DNA of 64,000 nt from Gammaproteobacteria bacterium LSUCC0096. Lineage in GTDB: Bacteria > Pseudomonadota > Gammaproteobacteria > Pseudomonadales > Litorivicinaceae. Within the stretch, counting starts at the first letter, position 1, and every line of letters starts with the position of its first letter. Positions 32,427 to 42,099 of the stretch are shown one piece after another. The notes under the pieces are model-generated. The model made no database searches, was not told where the DNA came from, and was given only the letters and a program-made list of their open reading frames with translations. Location of the stretch: the NCBI GenBank assembly GCA_008087055.1, contig VIEA01000002.1, positions 106,163 to 170,162 of the forward strand, written 5' to 3'. A program made the translations under genes and the position numbers.

Positions 32427-34001
32427 TTAAGGCTGATTGATATAGGCGTCAACGAAGGCATCGAAAGAGCCTTCGTTCGATGCCGCAATGCGTTCTTCGG
32501 CTACAAGGCTTTCTCGCGCTTCGTGTTGCATAGCCTGTAGCTTTTCTCCTGTCGGAGCAACTGTCTGCCAACTGTTATGGTGCTGATTGGCTCGAGCCAA
32601 ACCAAATTCTAAATGCCCCTCTTTCAGAACCGCTTGTTCGATTTCATCTGATAGCAGCGGACATGTTCCCTCGAGTCGTAGGCGTGCATCATCGAGTGCG
32701 TCGGTGAAACTCTCTGTTTGAAAAGCTGAATTCAGTGCTTCTGCCACAGGGTCAAGTGATCCCAAGAATTCAAGACCTGCTTGCTTGAATGTTGATCGAT
32801 CATCAAAGCGTTGGTCCAGACGTCGACCAGCCCAACTGGCACGCGCATTGATTCCATTGATGGCAACACATTCTTCTGGTGAATTTAGAGGGCTATCTGC
32901 CAGTGCTGATGCCGTCATCAACAACGTGATCAGAGATGCTTCATGTTCTGAGATGCCGTTGCGTGCAAAAGGGTTTAGATCAATCGCGCGTACTTCTAAG
33001 TATTCGACTCCACGATTGATGAGGGCTCGAACTGGGCGCTCACCTGACTTTTGAACACGCTTCGGCCGAATACTCGAGTAGTACTCATTCTCGATCTGCA
33101 AAACGGCAGTATTGAGCTGCTTAAATCCTTGATCGTCTTTTAGCCCTAAACCTTCGTAGGTTGGCCAAGGATGGTGGACTGCTTTTGATAGCGTATCGCA
33201 GTAGGTATCTAACTGATTGAAGCAAATATTGATCGATTCTTGTGCAGCCGATTGGTAGCCAAGATCGCTCATGCGAAGACTCGTTGCGCCCTCGGCGAGA
33301 CGTGTGCGCCCAGAGACTTTGAACCGGTCAGTGGCCAGTAAACGGAAACTCTCATCAACCGATGGACTTGACCCGGTCAGCAGCATGATTAGCCATTGGA
33401 TACGGCGAAAGTTACGAATGGTCTGGAAGTATCCATTATCGCGAATTACGCGGCTATCTGCGCCATCAGGATGCCCATCGAGTGCGGCTTTCCACGACCA
33501 GAAATCATCGCTGAAAGAGAGATTGAAGTGCACGCCTGCAATGGTTTGCATTTGTCGACCATAACGAAAACCGAGTCCCCGGCGGTAAACGGTCTTTAGA
33601 CGGCCAATGTGTGAGTCTCCGTAGTATGCCAGGGGAATATCTGAGTCCGAGTCAGGGAGCCGGCATGGCATTGATAGTGGCCAAATACGCTCGTTCCCGA
33701 GAACGGTGCTGGCAAAAGCATGGAGCTCTTCAAGTTCTTGGATAGCTGCTTGTGGCGATGCATGTGTGCCGGTAACAAACTCCAATAACGCCTCAGAATA
33801 GTCGGTCGTGATATGAGGGTGAGTGAGCGCAGAGCCAAGTGCTGTTGGATGTTCTGTTTGCGCGAGTTTGCCGGTATCTCGATCGACGCGGAGGCCTTCT
33901 TTTTCGAGCCCAAATCGCATCCCGACAAGATGTTGGCTCAAAGCATCTAAATGAGATTCTTGAATAATATGCGAAGAGATCGTGGGTAGTTTTAGTTGCA
34001 C
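32427..34001 (-). CDS. gshA: Glutamate-cysteine ligase
   Basis: ATP-dependent first step of glutathione synthesis. The 524 residues are near E. coli GshA (518). Seen: FGLEKEGLRVDR (ATP/Mg binding), TDYSEALLEFVTG, YGDSHIGRLKTVYRRGLGFRYGRQMQTIAGVHFN (in blocks), and EVRAIDLNPF. A GTG start overlaps the last ten bases of the preceding pckA-like gene, with GGA six bases upstream, so gshA is the sixth and last gene of the operon starting at ptrB. Confidence 0.94.
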   Translation of the reverse strand: MQLKLPTISSHIIQESHLDALSQHLVGMRFGLEKEGLRVDRDTGKLAQTEHPTALGSALTHPHITTDYSEALLEFVTGTHASPQAAIQELEELHAFASTVLGNERIWPLSMPCRLPDSDSDIPLAYYGDSHIGRLKTVYRRGLGFRYGRQMQTIAGVHFNLSFSDDFWSWKAALDGHPDGADSRVIRDNGYFQTIRNFRRIQWLIMLLTGSSPSVDESFRLLATDRFKVSGRTRLAEGATSLRMSDLGYQSAAQESINICFNQLDTYCDTLSKAVHHPWPTYEGLGLKDDQGFKQLNTAVLQIENEYYSSIRPKRVQKSGERPVRALINRGVEYLEVRAIDLNPFARNGISEHEASLITLLMTASALADSPLNSPEECVAINGINARASWAGRRLDQRFDDRSTFKQAGLEFLGSLDPVAEALNSAFQTESFTDALDDARLRLEGTCPLLSDEIEQAVLKEGHLEFGLARANQHHNSWQTVAPTGEKLQAMQHEARESLVAEERIAASNEGSFDAFVDAYINQP

Positions 34002-35506
34002 TCAATTTCCAAGGCTTTTAGCCATCGCTCTGGGTCATTGGTCCGCTGTAATTCATCCGTGATAGCTTGGATCAAACGTGACTCGTTCGTTGTGTAATCG
34101 CTCGACTCTGGCCAGCGATCTTTAGGATGCCATGGTCCGGCAGTCTCTGATTGACCCGCCGGAACAGACAAACCGAGGGATCCAAACGGTTCCCAATCAG
34201 TGCAGTAATACATACCCGTGATAACAGCACTTTCTTCTGACGCTGACAGTGGATCACCCTTGCCTGCTTGCCCACCATGCCACCCGGCGTTGACCAGGAA
34301 GCAACGGGTGTCATGTGCTTCAAGCAAGTCTTCCAAAATGAATACATAGTCATCGAGATTCCTCGGTAACAGCGTATCCATAAACCCTGGCGTGAATCGA
34401 ATATCGATTTCAGCTTGGCGTTCTTCGAGGGGTCCAAGGTGATTGCCGTAGCCTAAAATAAACCACGCGAGACATTGTTCTCGAGTGATTTTAGCCAGTG
34501 GAGGCAGTACGCCAAGAGGGTCCGTAGTTAAAATCACAAGTTGGCTTGGGCCGCGCGTATCAGATTCTTGAGTCGCATTGAGACGAGTGAGAGGTACAAC
34601 CAGGTGTGTGGGTGTTCGGATATCTGAGTCGATATCCGGATCTACAAATAGGGGTTCGCGATCGCTTCCAAGCGCTAGATTTTCAGCAATTGTGCCGAAC
34701 CGCAATGCCTCATCTAGGCTGATTGGCAGGTTATGATCGAGGTGAAGTCTGCAGCCATCAGCTAGACGATGTAATCCTTCATTTGACCAAGAAAGGCCCC
34801 GGTCACCAATAAGTTGCCCGCAACGCAATGCCCATGTTGTCTTTTGCGTCCCAGCAGGGCCGAGAAATAGCGTGATCTCCCCGTCACCTTGGGCAGCCGC
34901 TCCATGCAGGGGCAGCGTATCTTTTTCAGGAAGCAGAAGGCCTAAGAGTGTCAGAAGGGTACGACGCATCTCTCCAGTCGTCAGATCTCCGCCCATTAAA
35001 ATTCGGCGTTTGCCAACGTGGATTAAAATTACACCGCCGCCGTCGCTCAAAATTTCTGCGTCACCAAAGCTTTCGATTGGCGCCCAGATTAATTTCCATT
35101 CCGGTTTTTCGCGCGGATTGAACTCAGTCGGGATATGACACAAGTGATGACAACTCATGGCATGCCAGGCACTTAAGGTCGTAATCTCGAGTGGTACTGC
35201 AATGTCTGCATCGACGCCCATGTGGGCATGAATTCGGTAGCGATCACGCTCGACAACATCATCTTTGACCCTCTGCCAAATTGATTTAAAGACGCCGCTA
35301 TCAAGCAAGTGGAATTGAGCATCTGCGCGAATGACGTCGCTGACGGAGGGCTCATTGACGATGAATCGTTGAATTTCCGTATTGCGTTCGGTTGATACAG
35401 CCAATGCACCCTTGGCGGACAGTTGGCCCTCGCCTAAAGCGAGCGCGTGTTCAACCAGTTCGGCTAAGGTAAGATCGTCGAAACGACTCGACCCATCGGT
35501 TTTCAT
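33992..35506 (-). CDS. Divergent PEP carboxykinase (ATP) homologue, probably not a normal PckA
   Basis: A 504-residue intact frame that aligns along its length with ATP-type PEP carboxykinase: GALAV near residue 33, GGDLTTGEM (172-180), LLLPEKDTLPLHG, a P-loop GPAGTQKTT (216-224), GVLPPLAKITREQC and FLVNAGWHGG. Its place after hslO is that of pckA in Pseudomonas. Catalytic residues have changed: E. coli Tyr207 is Thr176, Lys212-Lys213 are Arg181-Arg182, Asp269 is Arg236, and the P-loop reads A-G-T-Q-K where S-G-T-G-K is expected. The TGRSPKDKY substrate loop is not recognisable. His201 and the P-loop Lys remain. It may be inactive, altered in substrate, or regulatory. It overlaps hslO (4 nt) and gshA (10 nt). 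Confidence 0.82.
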   Translation of the reverse strand: MKTDGSSRFDDLTLAELVEHALALGEGQLSAKGALAVSTERNTEIQRFIVNEPSVSDVIRADAQFHLLDSGVFKSIWQRVKDDVVERDRYRIHAHMGVDADIAVPLEITTLSAWHAMSCHHLCHIPTEFNPREKPEWKLIWAPIESFGDAEILSDGGGVILIHVGKRRILMGGDLTTGEMRRTLLTLLGLLLPEKDTLPLHGAAAQGDGEITLFLGPAGTQKTTWALRCGQLIGDRGLSWSNEGLHRLADGCRLHLDHNLPISLDEALRFGTIAENLALGSDREPLFVDPDIDSDIRTPTHLVVPLTRLNATQESDTRGPSQLVILTTDPLGVLPPLAKITREQCLAWFILGYGNHLGPLEERQAEIDIRFTPGFMDTLLPRNLDDYVFILEDLLEAHDTRCFLVNAGWHGGQAGKGDPLSASEESAVITGMYYCTDWEPFGSLGLSVPAGQSETAGPWHPKDRWPESSDYTTNESRLIQAITDELQRTNDPERWLKALEIECN

Positions 35507-36393
35507 TGTAGCGTGTCAGACCCCGGTGGCTGATCAGAGAGTAGCCATTCTAAGTCAGCCTGATCATATTGGTATACCTGTCCGCAAAAATGGCAATCAA
35601 CAGTCACTGAAGGTTGTTCAGCAAACAGTTGTTTTACTTCCATTTCACCCAGTGCCCTGATGGCTCGAGCAGATCGTTCTTTTGAACAAGAGCACCCAAA
35701 TTCGATGCCCCAGGGATCGAAACTTCGAGGACTGAGCTCATGAAATAGTTTGTAGATCATGAGTGGACCGGCCTCTTTTGCTAGCTCTTGTTCAGTAATT
35801 GTATCCGCGAGTGTTAAAAGTGTTTCCCAGTTTGAGTGCCCTTCAAGCGTTTGCCCGCCCTCTTCTGGAATGCGCTGGACAAGAAGTCCACCGACGGTTG
35901 ATTGGTCACTTGCAAGCCATAGCTTGGTATCGAGCTGCTCAGAATTTTCAAAGTAGTGATTGATACATCCCGAAATTGAGCCTGATTCCAAGGGCACAAT
36001 GCCCTGATACCGCTCACCTTGTTTTGGATCGACTGTAACGGCCAAGTAGCCTGTTCTAACAAGCTCCTCAAAGGTGGTTGCGTCACCAACATTATCCCAC
36101 TGAGCGGTTGACCGAATGAGGCCTTCCGAAGAGCACTCTGCAACCATCATCGTGACCGGCCCAGAGCTCTTGATTTGAAGAATCATTTCGCCATCAAATT
36201 TGAGCATATGGGACAAAATACAGGCTGCAGCAACAAGCTCTTCACATAACATTTTTACGGGCAAGGGCATCTTTTGATGATCAAGCATGTCGTTCTTAGT
36301 CTTGCCAAGGCGTACCGTCATCAGTCGAGCATCTGGTGCCTCATCACACATGTAGCGGCGGACTGCATCGTGATCAGGTGTCAGATCAGTCAT
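35503..36393 (-). CDS. hslO: Redox-regulated chaperone Hsp33
   Basis: Cytoplasmic holdase switched on by oxidation that releases zinc and unfolds a linker. All four zinc cysteines are present: Cys234 and Cys236 in FGCSCSKE, Cys267 and Cys270 in DCHFCGQ. The 296 residues match the family. The ATG overlaps hslR by 8 nt, and the stop overlaps the pckA-like start (ATGA). hslR-hslO adjacency is conserved from E. coli to Pseudomonas. Confidence 0.95.
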   Translation of the reverse strand: MTDLTPDHDAVRRYMCDEAPDARLMTVRLGKTKNDMLDHQKMPLPVKMLCEELVAAACILSHMLKFDGEMILQIKSSGPVTMMVAECSSEGLIRSTAQWDNVGDATTFEELVRTGYLAVTVDPKQGERYQGIVPLESGSISGCINHYFENSEQLDTKLWLASDQSTVGGLLVQRIPEEGGQTLEGHSNWETLLTLADTITEQELAKEAGPLMIYKLFHELSPRSFDPWGIEFGCSCSKERSARAIRALGEMEVKQLFAEQPSVTVDCHFCGQVYQYDQADLEWLLSDQPPGSDTLQ

Positions 36394-36775
36394 TAAAAAT
36401 TCCCTTTAACTTTGTCATTTGGCGACGTTCTCGTTTATTTGGACGGTGATCCGCTGGCTGGAATCCCGCACGGGAAAATCGATTTAAATCTCGTTCGGTT
36501 TCGCGCTTTTGAATCGACTCCGCAGTTTCTTCATAGAGGAGTTGTGCTTCAGATGCTGGGCGCCGATCTTCTCGTACATCTCGAACGATAATGACCATAT
36601 CGGTTTGCCCTCGCGAAATTTCAATCTCGATTCCAGGTGTTACCACTTTCGATGGCTTTGCTTTGACGCCATCGATATGAATTTTCCCGCCATCAATTGC
36701 ATCGCGCGCGAGTCCGCGGGTTTTGAAAAAGCGCGCTGCCCACAACCATTTGTCAAGCCGCACTCCTCCACTCAT
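36386..36775 (-). CDS. hslR: Ribosome-associated heat shock protein Hsp15 (S4 domain)
   Basis: A 129-residue RNA-binding protein with an N-terminal S4 domain, VRLDKWLWAARFFKTRGLA, read from residue 5, and a basic C-terminal tail (RPNKRERRQMTK). Hsp15 binds the free 50S subunit carrying a nascent chain and helps rescue stalled translation. It overlaps yrfG by 4 nt and hslO by 8 nt. Confidence 0.93.
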   Translation of the reverse strand: MSGGVRLDKWLWAARFFKTRGLARDAIDGGKIHIDGVKAKPSKVVTPGIEIEISRGQTDMVIIVRDVREDRRPASEAQLLYEETAESIQKRETERDLNRFSRAGFQPADHRPNKRERRQMTKLKGIFND

Positions 36776-37452
36776 TGTTGTGCTAAAGCCTCTAACTCAG
36801 GGATCAGTACGTCAAAGTCGTCGATACCTTGTTTCCAGGTAGTGCGTGGCGGTTCAGATAAATTCGGATGCCGGATTTCGATGATTTCCCTGATGCCAGC
36901 GCGATCGGCGGCTTCGAGAACCTTCGGGGAATCATCCATAAATACTGCACGATTTGGGTCGATTGAGTATTCCTCAAATAAAGCTGTCCAAAAATCTGGA
37001 TGTTCTTTTGCGACGCCATATTGATGGCTTGAAACGATGCCGTCGACCAATGCTCCTAAAGGAACAATCTCGAGCTTCAGCTGAATCACGTCAGGGTGCG
37101 CATTCGTAGCAATTAAGGTTCTCAGTGGCAACGGCCGCAGTGCCTCTAGAAACCGCTCCGCATGGGGTCTGAAGCGAATAAGATGGGCGAGCTGTTTTTT
37201 CGCTTCAATCAGATCTATACCAAAAAATTGAGCCCAGTAGTCTGTGCAGTACCAAGCGAGCGTTCCTTCGTGTTTTTTTAACTCTGTTCGAAACCGATCA
37301 CGAATCTCGTCTTCTGATTCCCCTGTCAGTCCTGCGACAACCGAGTGTACATTTTTTAACCAGAAGGTTGCGTCGTAATGCAGATCGAGGAGTGTACCGT
37401 CCATATCAAGTAGGACGTCATCGATCGCTTGCCAATTTATGTTAAAGGGCAT
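36772..37452 (-). CDS. yrfG: GMP/IMP nucleotidase, HAD superfamily
   Basis: A 226-residue HAD phosphatase from the ATG at 37452 (MPFNINWQAID), which follows AGGGG by seven bases; a longer frame to 37548 lies within ptrB. HAD motifs: DMDGTLLDL (I), IATNAHP (II), the Lys of YGVAKEHPDFW (III) and FMDDSPKVLEAADRAG (IV). YrfG hydrolyses GMP and IMP; the assignment rests on similarity and the yrfG-hslR-hslO order. It overlaps ptrB by 11 nt. Confidence 0.88.
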   Translation of the reverse strand: MPFNINWQAIDDVLLDMDGTLLDLHYDATFWLKNVHSVVAGLTGESEDEIRDRFRTELKKHEGTLAWYCTDYWAQFFGIDLIEAKKQLAHLIRFRPHAERFLEALRPLPLRTLIATNAHPDVIQLKLEIVPLGALVDGIVSSHQYGVAKEHPDFWTALFEEYSIDPNRAVFMDDSPKVLEAADRAGIREIIEIRHPNLSEPPRTTWKQGIDDFDVLIPELEALAQQ

Positions 37453-39496
37453 GAGGCGCCCCTTGCGGTAAGTCGAATAGCTGGACGACTGCCTGATAAA
37501 TACGAGCGATATCATCGAGACCGGCGTAGCGTCCACTTGGGCCCCCATGCCCTGCGTTTAATTCGGTGTACAACAGAAATGGTCCTCCCTCGGCTATTGC
37601 TTGGAGATGATGAATCCATCGCGCAGGCTCCCAATACGTGACACGTGGATCCGTCAGCCCAGCGGTTGCGAGAATACAAGGATAGGGCCTCTTTTCGACC
37701 ATCAATGTTGGTGAGAAATGATGCAGGCGACGTTTGGCATCCATTGATTCAATCGGGTTCCCCCACTCTGGCCACTCGGGTGGTGTCAGTGGTAATTCGG
37801 CGTCGAGCATTGTTTCAAGTACATCGACAAAAGGAACATCTGCAATCACCCCTTTGAATAGTTCCGGCCGGCGCATGACAGTTGTACCTACTAATAACCC
37901 CCCGGCACTGCCTCCGTGCAGAATAATGTTACCTGCAGATGTCCAGCCTTCCCGAATCAATGTCTCCGCAGCACCAATGAAATCATCAAAGGATTTATCT
38001 TTATCGGCCATTCGGCCAGAGCGATACCATTGATATCCATTTTCCATTCCGCCACGAACGTGTGCCGTGACGTGGATGACACCTCGAGTCAGCAGTGTAC
38101 GTCTGCTTGCACTAAAGCCAGGCGTCAAGCTCATGCCATAGGCTCCATAGCCTGTCAGTAGCACTGGACTCGTCGGGTTTGGCGTGATGTCTTTGTGATG
38201 GACAATCGTGAGCGGAATCTTTTGCCCGTCGCCCGAAATGCCATACGAGCGCTGAACCACGTAGTTGGATTCGGTATGGCCATTGGGTGGGGCGGATACT
38301 TTCAGTTGTTTAAAGTTCCCTGTGGTCAGATCAATTTCACGAACCTCTGGAGGCATCGCTGGTGTTGAGATACGCATCCGAATCGTATCGCGGCTAAACC
38401 CGGGTAGCGGATCGAGGTGTGCATCATGAATTGACGTCGACAAGTGAAGTTCTTGTCTGATTTCGAACTTTGAAGGGTTTGGTTCAACAATCAGATACCG
38501 ACCACACCCTTCTTCGGAGTATTCAATTACCCAGTGCTTCGCGAGCACTTCATAATCACTAAATAAAGCCCCTTCTTTGGGCACCCAAAGGGTCTCCCAA
38601 CATTCTGGATTACTGCGACTCTCTGTTGTTGGGAGGGGTGCTCGATATAGCGCAAAATCCTCATGCTCATAATTGCCCCGGATGATTAGATAGGGGTCGA
38701 CATGTTCGAGTTCGTATTCAATGCCTTCGATCCAATCTGTTACGGCGATAGGGGTCAGGTTTTCGAGGTCTGCCGGTAACAAGAAGCTTTGGTTTGTCTG
38801 ATGATCGTGTATATCGATCGTGATCCAAGCATCAGAACTTGTTTTACCGAGACCAATAAAGCGGCCGGGATGCTCTAGTTGATACACTAGTTGATCATCT
38901 ATTTGATCTGTCCCGATCGTGTGGCACCAGACGGTACTTGGACGCTGGTGTTCATCAAGGCGTGTATAGAGAAGCTTGCGACTGTCGGTACTCCACTCAA
39001 AATCACCACGACAATCAGTGAGAGGTGTTTCAATTGGTTCTTGAGAGCCTGCTTGGAACAGGGTCAATGTATAGCGTTCAGAGCCCTGTCGATCTTCAGT
39101 GACAGCAAATAGCTCATGATTAGGAGAGTGATCAGCGGCGCCAATATCATAGTAAGGATGGTTGGCTGCGCGTTCATCGCCGCACAGTAAAATTTCGAGA
39201 TCATTTGTTTCTTTCTGTCTCAAGAAATCTGGATGTTCGGCGCCTTCGATAAAGCGTTGCCAGTACGTGTAGTCGCCATCTTCGACTGGGACTGAATCAT
39301 CGCGATCAAGAATGGTGGCTTTCAGTTCATCGATGATCCATTGGCGTGAGTTAGGTCCGCCAAGCCACGATTCAGCGGTTTGATTCTGAACTTCGAGAAA
39401 GCTTCGAATCTCGCTCGGAAGTGATTCTGGCTCTTCCAGAACCTCCTGCCAGTTTTCGGCTTTTAACCACGCATTGTCTTTCGTTGGGCTTTGCAT
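37442..39496 (-). CDS. ptrB: Oligopeptidase B (prolyl oligopeptidase family)
   Basis: A 684-residue serine peptidase cleaving after basic residues in short peptides (E. coli 686). The N-terminal beta-propeller covers about 1-400. The C-terminal alpha/beta hydrolase has YGAYGMSLTPGF, THVRGG-like AHVRGGMENG, the nucleophile in GGSAGGLLVG, and a catalytic His in NAGHGGPSGRY. It is the first gene of the overlapping minus-strand run ptrB-yrfG-hslR-hslO-pckA-like-gshA. Confidence 0.94.
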   Translation of the reverse strand: MQSPTKDNAWLKAENWQEVLEEPESLPSEIRSFLEVQNQTAESWLGGPNSRQWIIDELKATILDRDDSVPVEDGDYTYWQRFIEGAEHPDFLRQKETNDLEILLCGDERAANHPYYDIGAADHSPNHELFAVTEDRQGSERYTLTLFQAGSQEPIETPLTDCRGDFEWSTDSRKLLYTRLDEHQRPSTVWCHTIGTDQIDDQLVYQLEHPGRFIGLGKTSSDAWITIDIHDHQTNQSFLLPADLENLTPIAVTDWIEGIEYELEHVDPYLIIRGNYEHEDFALYRAPLPTTESRSNPECWETLWVPKEGALFSDYEVLAKHWVIEYSEEGCGRYLIVEPNPSKFEIRQELHLSTSIHDAHLDPLPGFSRDTIRMRISTPAMPPEVREIDLTTGNFKQLKVSAPPNGHTESNYVVQRSYGISGDGQKIPLTIVHHKDITPNPTSPVLLTGYGAYGMSLTPGFSASRRTLLTRGVIHVTAHVRGGMENGYQWYRSGRMADKDKSFDDFIGAAETLIREGWTSAGNIILHGGSAGGLLVGTTVMRRPELFKGVIADVPFVDVLETMLDAELPLTPPEWPEWGNPIESMDAKRRLHHFSPTLMVEKRPYPCILATAGLTDPRVTYWEPARWIHHLQAIAEGGPFLLYTELNAGHGGPSGRYAGLDDIARIYQAVVQLFDLPQGAPHAL

Positions 39497-40469: not shown

Positions 40470-41540
40470 ATGAAAAAAACACTCATGGCCTTGTGCTTCC
40501 TAGGCTCATCGTTGTCGTTTGCTGAGACAGAAAAAGCGACTTTCGGTGGTGGCTGTTTTTGGTGTTTGGAACCGCCCTTTGAATCGATCCATGGCGTGAG
40601 CTCTGTCGTGTCAGGGTATGCTGGTGGATCTGTGCCTAACCCAACCTATGCTCAGGTGACCTCCGGCCAAACCGGCCATATTGAAGTGGTCGAAGTAGTC
40701 TTTGATCCACGTATCGTTGATTACCAGACATTATTGAATACCTTTTGGCGACAGGTTGATCCGACTGATGCCGGTGGGCAGTTTGTTGATCGTGGATCCC
40801 AGTACCGAACCGTGATTTTTACGCATTCGGAGTCGCAGCGCGCGCTTGCAGTTGAATCGAAAGAGCGTTTGAATGCGGCCCAAATTTTTGATGCTCCAAT
40901 CGTCACTGAGATTTTGCCTGCGCCAACATTTTATGAGGCTGAGGATTATCACCAGGATTATTACAAAACCAATGCGCTGCAGTACAAGTTCTACCGATAT
41001 CGTTCGGGACGAGATCAGTTTTTAGACCGTGTGTGGTCGAAACATCAAAACTTCCAGATATTTGGTAACGGAGGTTTGAAAAAGAGCGCGTATAGAAAGC
41101 CAGGCATAGAAGAAATTCGCGCCCGATTGACGCCGCTTCAGTATCAAGTGACCCAGGAAGATGGTACGGAGCCGCCTTTCCAAAATGCTTTTTGGGATCA
41201 GAAATCTGACGGTATATACGTCGATGTTGTGAGTGGTGAGCCATTATTTAGCTCGTTGCATAAATACGATTCGGGAACTGGTTGGCCTTCTTTTTGGCAA
41301 CCGCTTGAGCCGCAACATATTGTTGAGAAAGATGACACCAAGCTTTGGATGAAGCGTATTGAGGTACGGTCGAAATTTGGTGATTCGCACCTTGGCCATG
41401 TATTTCCGGATGGTCCTGCGCCGACTGGTTTGCGTTATTGCATCAATTCTGCAGCCCTCGAATTCATTCCTGTATCGCAACTTCAGGCCCGAGGGTATGA
41501 AAAATATTTAACGCAATTTGAGAATGCGTTGAATCAGTGA
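40470..41540 (+). CDS. msrAB: Exported MsrA-MsrB fusion, methionine sulfoxide reductase
   Basis: A 356-residue two-domain protein that repairs both S- and R-methionine sulfoxides. A short signal peptide (residues 1-18, cut near LSFA-E) points to the envelope. MsrA (about 22-190) has the catalytic Cys29 in GGGCFWC; MsrB (about 212-345) has [20 protein letters not shown] and the catalytic Cys near residue 323 in [10 protein letters not shown]. The MsrB zinc CxxC pairs are absent, as is usual in fusions. No N-terminal thioredoxin-like domain like that of Neisseria PilB is present, so the reductant must be another protein. Confidence 0.93.
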
Positions 41541-41601: not shown

Positions 41602-42099
41602 ATGCCAGTCACTATCTCTCACCGTGGCGATATGATCGAAGTAGACGGAAGTCTGCCTGCAGTTGGATCAAAAGCCCCAGATTTTTCACTTGTGGCGAAC
41701 GATCTGTCTGAAATCACTCTGGATTCATATGCCGGAAAGAATCTGATTTTGAATATTTTCCCATCGATTGACACACCGACTTGCGCAAAGAGTACCCGCC
41801 GGTTCAATGAAGAGTTATCAGCACTTGATAATACGAACGTGCTTTGTGTGAGTGCTGATCTTCCATTCGCACAGGCTCGTTTTTGTGGTGCTGAAGGCCT
41901 CGAGCGCGTTGAGACTGGATCAACTTTCAGATCAACATTTTCTAATGATTATGGTGTGACGATTCTGTCGGGTAAGTTGGCGACTTTAACCACTCGTGCG
42001 GTTATCGTCATTGGACCAGATGGTGTGGTTAAGCATGTCGAATTGGTTCCTGAGATCGGTCAAGAGCCCGATTACGACGCGGCACTCGCATCACTTTAA
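41602..42099 (+). CDS. tpx: Thiol peroxidase (Tpx, atypical 2-Cys peroxiredoxin)
   Basis: Reduces hydroperoxides using thioredoxin. The 165 residues contain the peroxidatic Cys61 in SIDTPTCAKSTR and the resolving Cys95 in ARFCGAEG, both in the family context. GAGG precedes the ATG. Its stop abuts that of the convergent ModE-like gene. Confidence 0.95.
   Translation: MPVTISHRGDMIEVDGSLPAVGSKAPDFSLVANDLSEITLDSYAGKNLILNIFPSIDTPTCAKSTRRFNEELSALDNTNVLCVSADLPFAQARFCGAEGLERVETGSTFRSTFSNDYGVTILSGKLATLTTRAVIVIGPDGVVKHVELVPEIGQEPDYDAALASL

Follow-up and report, generated by a model that had tools for sequence, protein, structure and literature searches.

A selection-maintained homologue of PEP carboxykinase with replaced active-site residues in the marine OM252 group

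PEP carboxykinase (PEPCK) is a textbook gluconeogenic enzyme with a near-invariant active site. The locus described here raises the question of what becomes of such an enzyme when most of its substrate- and metal-binding residues have been replaced together and the gene is nevertheless retained. The gene lies within a stretch of 64,000 nucleotides (the window) of Gammaproteobacteria bacterium LSUCC0096 (GCA_008087055.1, contig VIEA01000002.1, positions 106,163-170,162). A preliminary description of this DNA had reported an intact 504-codon frame in the position of pckA that can be aligned with PckA, and had concluded that the product cannot be a normal PEPCK and should be either a pseudoenzyme or an enzyme with a new substrate. 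Gene order, the open reading frame and a Pfam match confirm the first statement, and the sequence tests that were run are consistent with the second. It is well supported that the gene is functional and maintained by selection and, as judged from sequence, that its product would no longer be a PEPCK.

Genomic context, family membership and distribution

The gene order yrfG-hslR-hslO-pckA-gshA (Table 1), with a convergent fkpA beyond, is found in all genomes of the genus in which the locus is assembled. Because this order matches that of E. coli (yrfG-hslR-hslO-(yhgE)-pck) and the hslR-hslO-pckA arrangement of many canonical Pseudomonadales, the divergent gene is considered the positional orthologue of gammaproteobacterial pckA. 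Adjacency of pckA and gshA also occurs in one canonical relative. The translational coupling between hslO and pckA had been described as kept. However, the ATGA overlap, which is also present in other members of the genus, is newly acquired, since the two genes are separated by ~93-421 bp in the canonical relatives measured. At the other end of the gene, the GTG start of gshA appears to lie inside the 3' end of pckA (33992-34001), a 10-bp overlap suggesting further tight coupling. The vicinity of gshA and hslO also contains an msrA-msrB-like fusion (methionine sulfoxide reductase; window positions 40470-41540), followed by a tpx-like peroxidase gene (41602-42099), both named by eye.

Table 1. 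Window positions of the divergent pckA, its neighbours and its altered sites
Feature	Position	Strand	Remarks
pckA (divergent PckA orthologue, 504 aa)	33992..35506	-	ATG at 35506, stop at 33992, 504 codons; supported by ORF, Pfam, orthologues and AlphaFold fold
hslO (Hsp33)	35503..36393	-	Upstream of pckA; stop/start ATGA overlap with pckA
hslR (Hsp15)	36386..36775	-	Upstream of hslO
yrfG-like HAD hydrolase	36772..37548	-	First gene of the conserved run
gshA (glutamate-cysteine ligase)	32427..34001	-	Downstream of pckA
C-H-H-L-C-H cluster, residues 119-124	35135..35152	-	Derived, conserved
Arg181-Arg182 (E. coli K212-K213)	34961..34966	-	Invariant in 17 orthologues; synonymous CGN codons
Arg236 (metal ligand D269)	34799..34801	-	From alignment; all four CGN codons used across the 17 orthologues
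P-loop GPAGTQKT, residues 216-223	34838..34861	-	Lys222 and Thr223 kept; coordinates counted from 35506

The Pfam family PEPCK_ATP (PF01293) matches residues 10-430 of the protein (E 8.8e-68; 229.5 bits, cut-off 26.5), while the NCBIfam PckA models match far under their cut-offs (NF006823, 249 vs 815 bits; TIGR00224, 170 vs 590 bits). Across the order, full-length canonical PckAs score ~620-705 bits, whereas members of the genus score 203-235, and in a sample of the class (369 genomes, 93 of them over the cut-off) the window protein is the sole full-length match below 400 bits; a phylum-wide survey (398 genomes) served as background only. The divergent protein is ~30% identical to canonical PckA, whereas PckAs from different families of one order are 72% identical. 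Within the genus the orthologues are 58-97% identical to one another, compared with 26-33% to the canonical relatives, which share at least 63% among themselves. The window genome (1.94 Mb, 99.4% complete) contains neither a second PF01293 match nor a match to the GTP-type PEPCK family (PF00821), and the search for a canonical pckA proposed in the preliminary description hence came back empty.

Orthologues are found in 19 of the 21 other genomes of the genus, and the two genomes without a match also lack a detectable hslO. All conservation counts given below are based on 17 full-length orthologues, each with an intact frame of ~500 codons, which form the predicted clade with shared substitutions beside hslO. 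They derive from an isolate, single cells and metagenome-assembled genomes (MAGs), and an origin by chance or artefact is rejected because these 17 assemblies of differing type agree. The relatives that carry names (uncultured Litoricola, Litorivicinus and strain HIMB30) place the genus in the OM252 group (PMC8269220). A scan for short motifs in 84,980 species of bacteria and archaea, which distant relatives would escape, found relatives in the OM252 group only, and viral contigs searched with a profile of the genus clade yielded none.

Active-site residues and predicted structure

Residues were mapped in an alignment of the 17 genus sequences with 18 canonical Pseudomonadales PckAs and 5 E. 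coli-type PckAs, and are numbered on E. coli PckA. PCKs are defined by the motifs KK, KT and GDD (Aich and Delbaere 2007; PMC2684135). In the divergent protein the P-loop (kinase-1a) pair Lys254-Thr255 is present as K222-T223 (Ser in 3/17), although within GPAGTQKT instead of GLSGTGKT. The PCK-specific KK motif is absent, with RR in 17/17 sequences, and the kinase-2 GDD motif reads GDR, or GER in 2/17. The TGRSP substrate loop and R65 are missing due to a 3-residue deletion, and the positions of K288 and R449 also fall within deletions. Furthermore, Y207 is replaced by T176 (Ser in two orthologues), R333 by H301, E297 by P261 and H271 by L238. The equivalents of H232 (H201), D268 (D235; Glu in 2/17), E210 (E179) and W273 are kept. 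The alignment thereby reproduces every change listed in the preliminary description, namely Thr176, Arg181/Arg182, Arg236, the altered P-loop and the loss of the TGRSP loop, and adds to them the changes at R333, K288, R449, E297 and H271. The canonical set contains 114 invariant residues, 38 of which are kept, 35 are exchanged for another fixed residue or a fixed gap and 41 are variable. From GEM-RR to GDR-W the alignment to canonical PckAs is near-gapless, and therefore no shifted residues supply the lost Lys and Asp, which answers an objection foreseen for the metal site.

Compared with the ATP-dependent PckA (PF01293; E. coli, Thermus thermophilus and the 513-aa type of Pseudomonadales), the divergent protein thus shares full-length homology, the predicted fold, the position after hslR-hslO and the equivalents of the P-loop Lys/Thr, His232 and Asp268, but differs in KK, GDD, the TGRSP loop, Y207, R333, K288 and R449. 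Rare PCKs without the P-loop Lys or, in Aeropyrum pernix, without the second Lys of the KK motif have been reported (PMC2684135). Those are single changes, whereas in the divergent protein replacement affects most of the substrate and metal residues at once, spares the P-loop Lys and extends throughout a genus. A further divergent full-length PckA with a changed metal site, a changed R333 and a long stem (3.8 changes/column) occurs in three genomes of the gammaproteobacterial family f95. It carries K212N, H232Y, D268N, D269E and R333Y and keeps R65, Y207, K213, K254, K288 and R449; because its changes differ from those described above, it represents an independent case. PckA homologues on viral contigs (31 sequences; 37-63% identity to the canonical query) have the canonical residue at every active-site position checked. 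IMG/VR contigs classed as viral, some of 107-188 kb, contain many PckA homologues of ~490 aa whose active sites are intact where checked, and which are possibly phage-encoded PEPCKs.

Residues 119-124 form a derived C-H-x-L-C-H cluster. Cys119, His120, Cys123 and His124 are invariant in 17/17 orthologues; at the six cluster positions canonical PckAs have G/A/V, a variable residue, N, L/M, F and I/V. Of the 16 derived conserved Cys/His residues, five are clustered in this stretch of six (permutation p ~1e-4, post hoc), and the proteins of the genus contain 18-23 His residues compared with 6-19 in canonical PckAs. The cluster is a possible metal or redox site. A c-type haem site, suggested by the C-x-x-x-C-H spacing, was considered and dropped because inspection of the N-terminus by eye gave no evident export signal.

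The AlphaFold model obtained with a 43-sequence alignment (pLDDT 88.3, pTM 0.89) has its best solved match in Thermus PckA (1xkv; Z 42.0, rmsd 2.2 over 481 residues), with further matches to the E. coli enzyme (Z ~38-40) and to GTP-type PEPCKs (~27). Foldseek matches to ATP-type PEPCKs have E values of 1e-44 to 1e-35. The structure prediction called for earlier thus returned a PEPCK fold. An alignment of 14 genus sequences only gave a pLDDT of 41, and the model became usable after the 31 viral-contig homologues were added. Since the alignment included canonical PckAs, the full PEPCK fold that the protein is predicted to adopt is expected rather than independently proven.

Selection and evolutionary history

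Pairwise dN/dS of the divergent gene within the genus (dS < 2) has a median of 0.053 and a range of 0.02-0.22, compared with medians of 0.086 for hslO, 0.093 for gshA, 0.056 for hslR and 0.043 for fkpA. Relaxed selection, i.e. a ratio near 1, which had been named as a sign of decay, is not seen. The codons of R181, R182, R236, R253 and H301 vary synonymously among genomes while the residues are fixed, and therefore the replacements themselves are maintained. Invariant columns are concentrated in the active-site segments (32/43, compared with 164/454 elsewhere in the sequence; odds ratio 5.1, p 2e-6), a conservation of P-loop and active site that may be partly structural. In a likelihood tree the genus forms a clade with 100% support on a stem of ~5 changes/column (saturated, the exact length being uncertain), with terminal branches of 0.01-0.47. 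The protein changed in a single burst along the genus stem, followed by stasis. Loss of catalytic residues in a frame and fold under purifying selection, one of the marks of a pseudoenzyme, is what is found here.

In the sister genus gshA follows hslO after ~140 bp without a pckA in between, and a search of its three genomes gave no PckA match. PEP synthase is over the cut-off in the window genome and in 8 of the 12 family genomes searched, malic enzyme is present in all family genomes searched, and PEP carboxylase is present in the window genome. Malic enzyme and PEP synthase are able to substitute for PEPCK (PMC8100219). A plausible history is that the divergent gene derived from an ordinary gammaproteobacterial pckA at the ancestral site after hslO. 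PEPCK activity would have become dispensable in the ancestor of the family because PEP can be formed from C4 acids by malic enzyme and PEP synthase. The gene would then have been lost in the sister genus, while in the genus studied here the protein would have been rapidly rebuilt and fixed for another role.

Possible functions and significance

The preferred reading, to which we assign a probability of about 0.56, is that the protein is a regulatory or scaffold pseudoenzyme that responds to a nucleotide or anion and has lost PEPCK function. Lys222 and Thr223 of the P-loop would still hold phosphate groups, either of a nucleotide or of some other phosphorylated ligand; as the nucleotide contact R449 is deleted, nucleotide binding is itself something we infer. 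Arg182 and Arg236 would occupy the former metal site, so that no catalytic Mn2+ would be bound, and together with Arg181, Arg253, His246, His255 and His301 they would form a basic anion pocket. Oxaloacetate would neither be bound nor decarboxylated any more. The protein would be co-translated with Hsp33 and the glutathione synthesis enzyme, and perhaps carry a metal- or redox-sensitive site in the C-H-x-L-C-H cluster. Because the link to hslO and gshA is the ancestral position, it is weak evidence for a role in a stress operon.

The pseudoenzyme is favoured over an active kinase or phosphotransferase with a new substrate, a less probable reading that nonetheless deserves serious consideration. 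Such an enzyme would bind ATP-Mg2+ on Lys222/Thr223, use Asp235 as a base or Mg2+ contact and accommodate an acidic substrate in the Arg/His pocket. HPr kinase/phosphorylase and related kinases have a related P-loop fold, and chemistry of this kind would be compatible with the retained P-loop and first Asp. The retained P-loop Lys/Thr, Asp235 (Glu in two orthologues), His201 and Glu179 fit residual phosphotransfer as well as they fit a pseudoenzyme, and both the newly fixed basic residues and the conservation of the cleft above the rest of the protein speak for this reading. However, two of the three metal ligands have become Arg, the contact R449 is deleted and a substrate candidate is lacking. 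In addition, no match to an HPr kinase family was obtained with Pfam or NCBIfam (E up to 1), and the best 50 structural matches listed are all PEPCKs with no HPr kinase among them, which does not amount to exclusion.

Continued PEPCK activity by means of different residues, with Arg for Lys and other acids for Asp269, is very improbable. In its favour, the predicted fold is kept whole, purifying selection is strong, the gene encodes the sole PEPCK homologue found in the genome and published OM252 genomes have been described as gluconeogenic (PMC8269220). Nonetheless, the R65 loop, Y207, K213, D269, K288, R333 and R449, which canonical PckAs retain with few or no exceptions, have all changed, whereas the residues checked persist even in divergent PckAs encoded on viral contigs. 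No shifted replacements emerge from the alignment, malic enzyme and PEP synthase offer another route to PEP, and pckA is absent from the locus in the sister genus. Least credible of all is a decaying gene that drifts after PEPCK became useless. This would agree with the loss of canonical residues, the absence of the gene in the sister genus and a frame-broken copy in one MAG of the genus (M30B13). The breaks in M30B13, however, span the 3' part of hslO as well as the 5' half of pckA and leave the last 218 codons intact; they are probably a local assembly error. As the changes are fixed in 17 orthologues with full-length frames, with synonymous codon variation and dN/dS of ~0.05, the gene is neither decaying nor an artefact, and decay is rejected, provided that the selection signal stems from the protein itself.

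Searches of the open literature turned up no earlier account of a PEPCK that lacks its metal and substrate residues throughout a clade and is nevertheless maintained by selection. More tentatively than the pseudoenzyme reading itself, it is possible, though less likely than not, that the only PEPCK of the genus became a protein of new activity or a metal- or redox-sensing regulator, built on the Arg/His anion pocket and the C-H-x-L-C-H cluster and co-translated with Hsp33 and glutathione synthesis, which would constitute a new function of the PEPCK fold. Gluconeogenesis is listed for the OM252 group in a paper whose main text makes no mention of pckA (PMC8269220), and gene-based claims of gluconeogenesis through PEPCK in this widespread marine group may rest on a misannotated gene. 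Canonical relatives, a sister genus without the gene and one genus with a rebuilt gene together form a natural experiment, and the divergent protein makes testable what the PEPCK fold does when Arg replaces its metal ligands.
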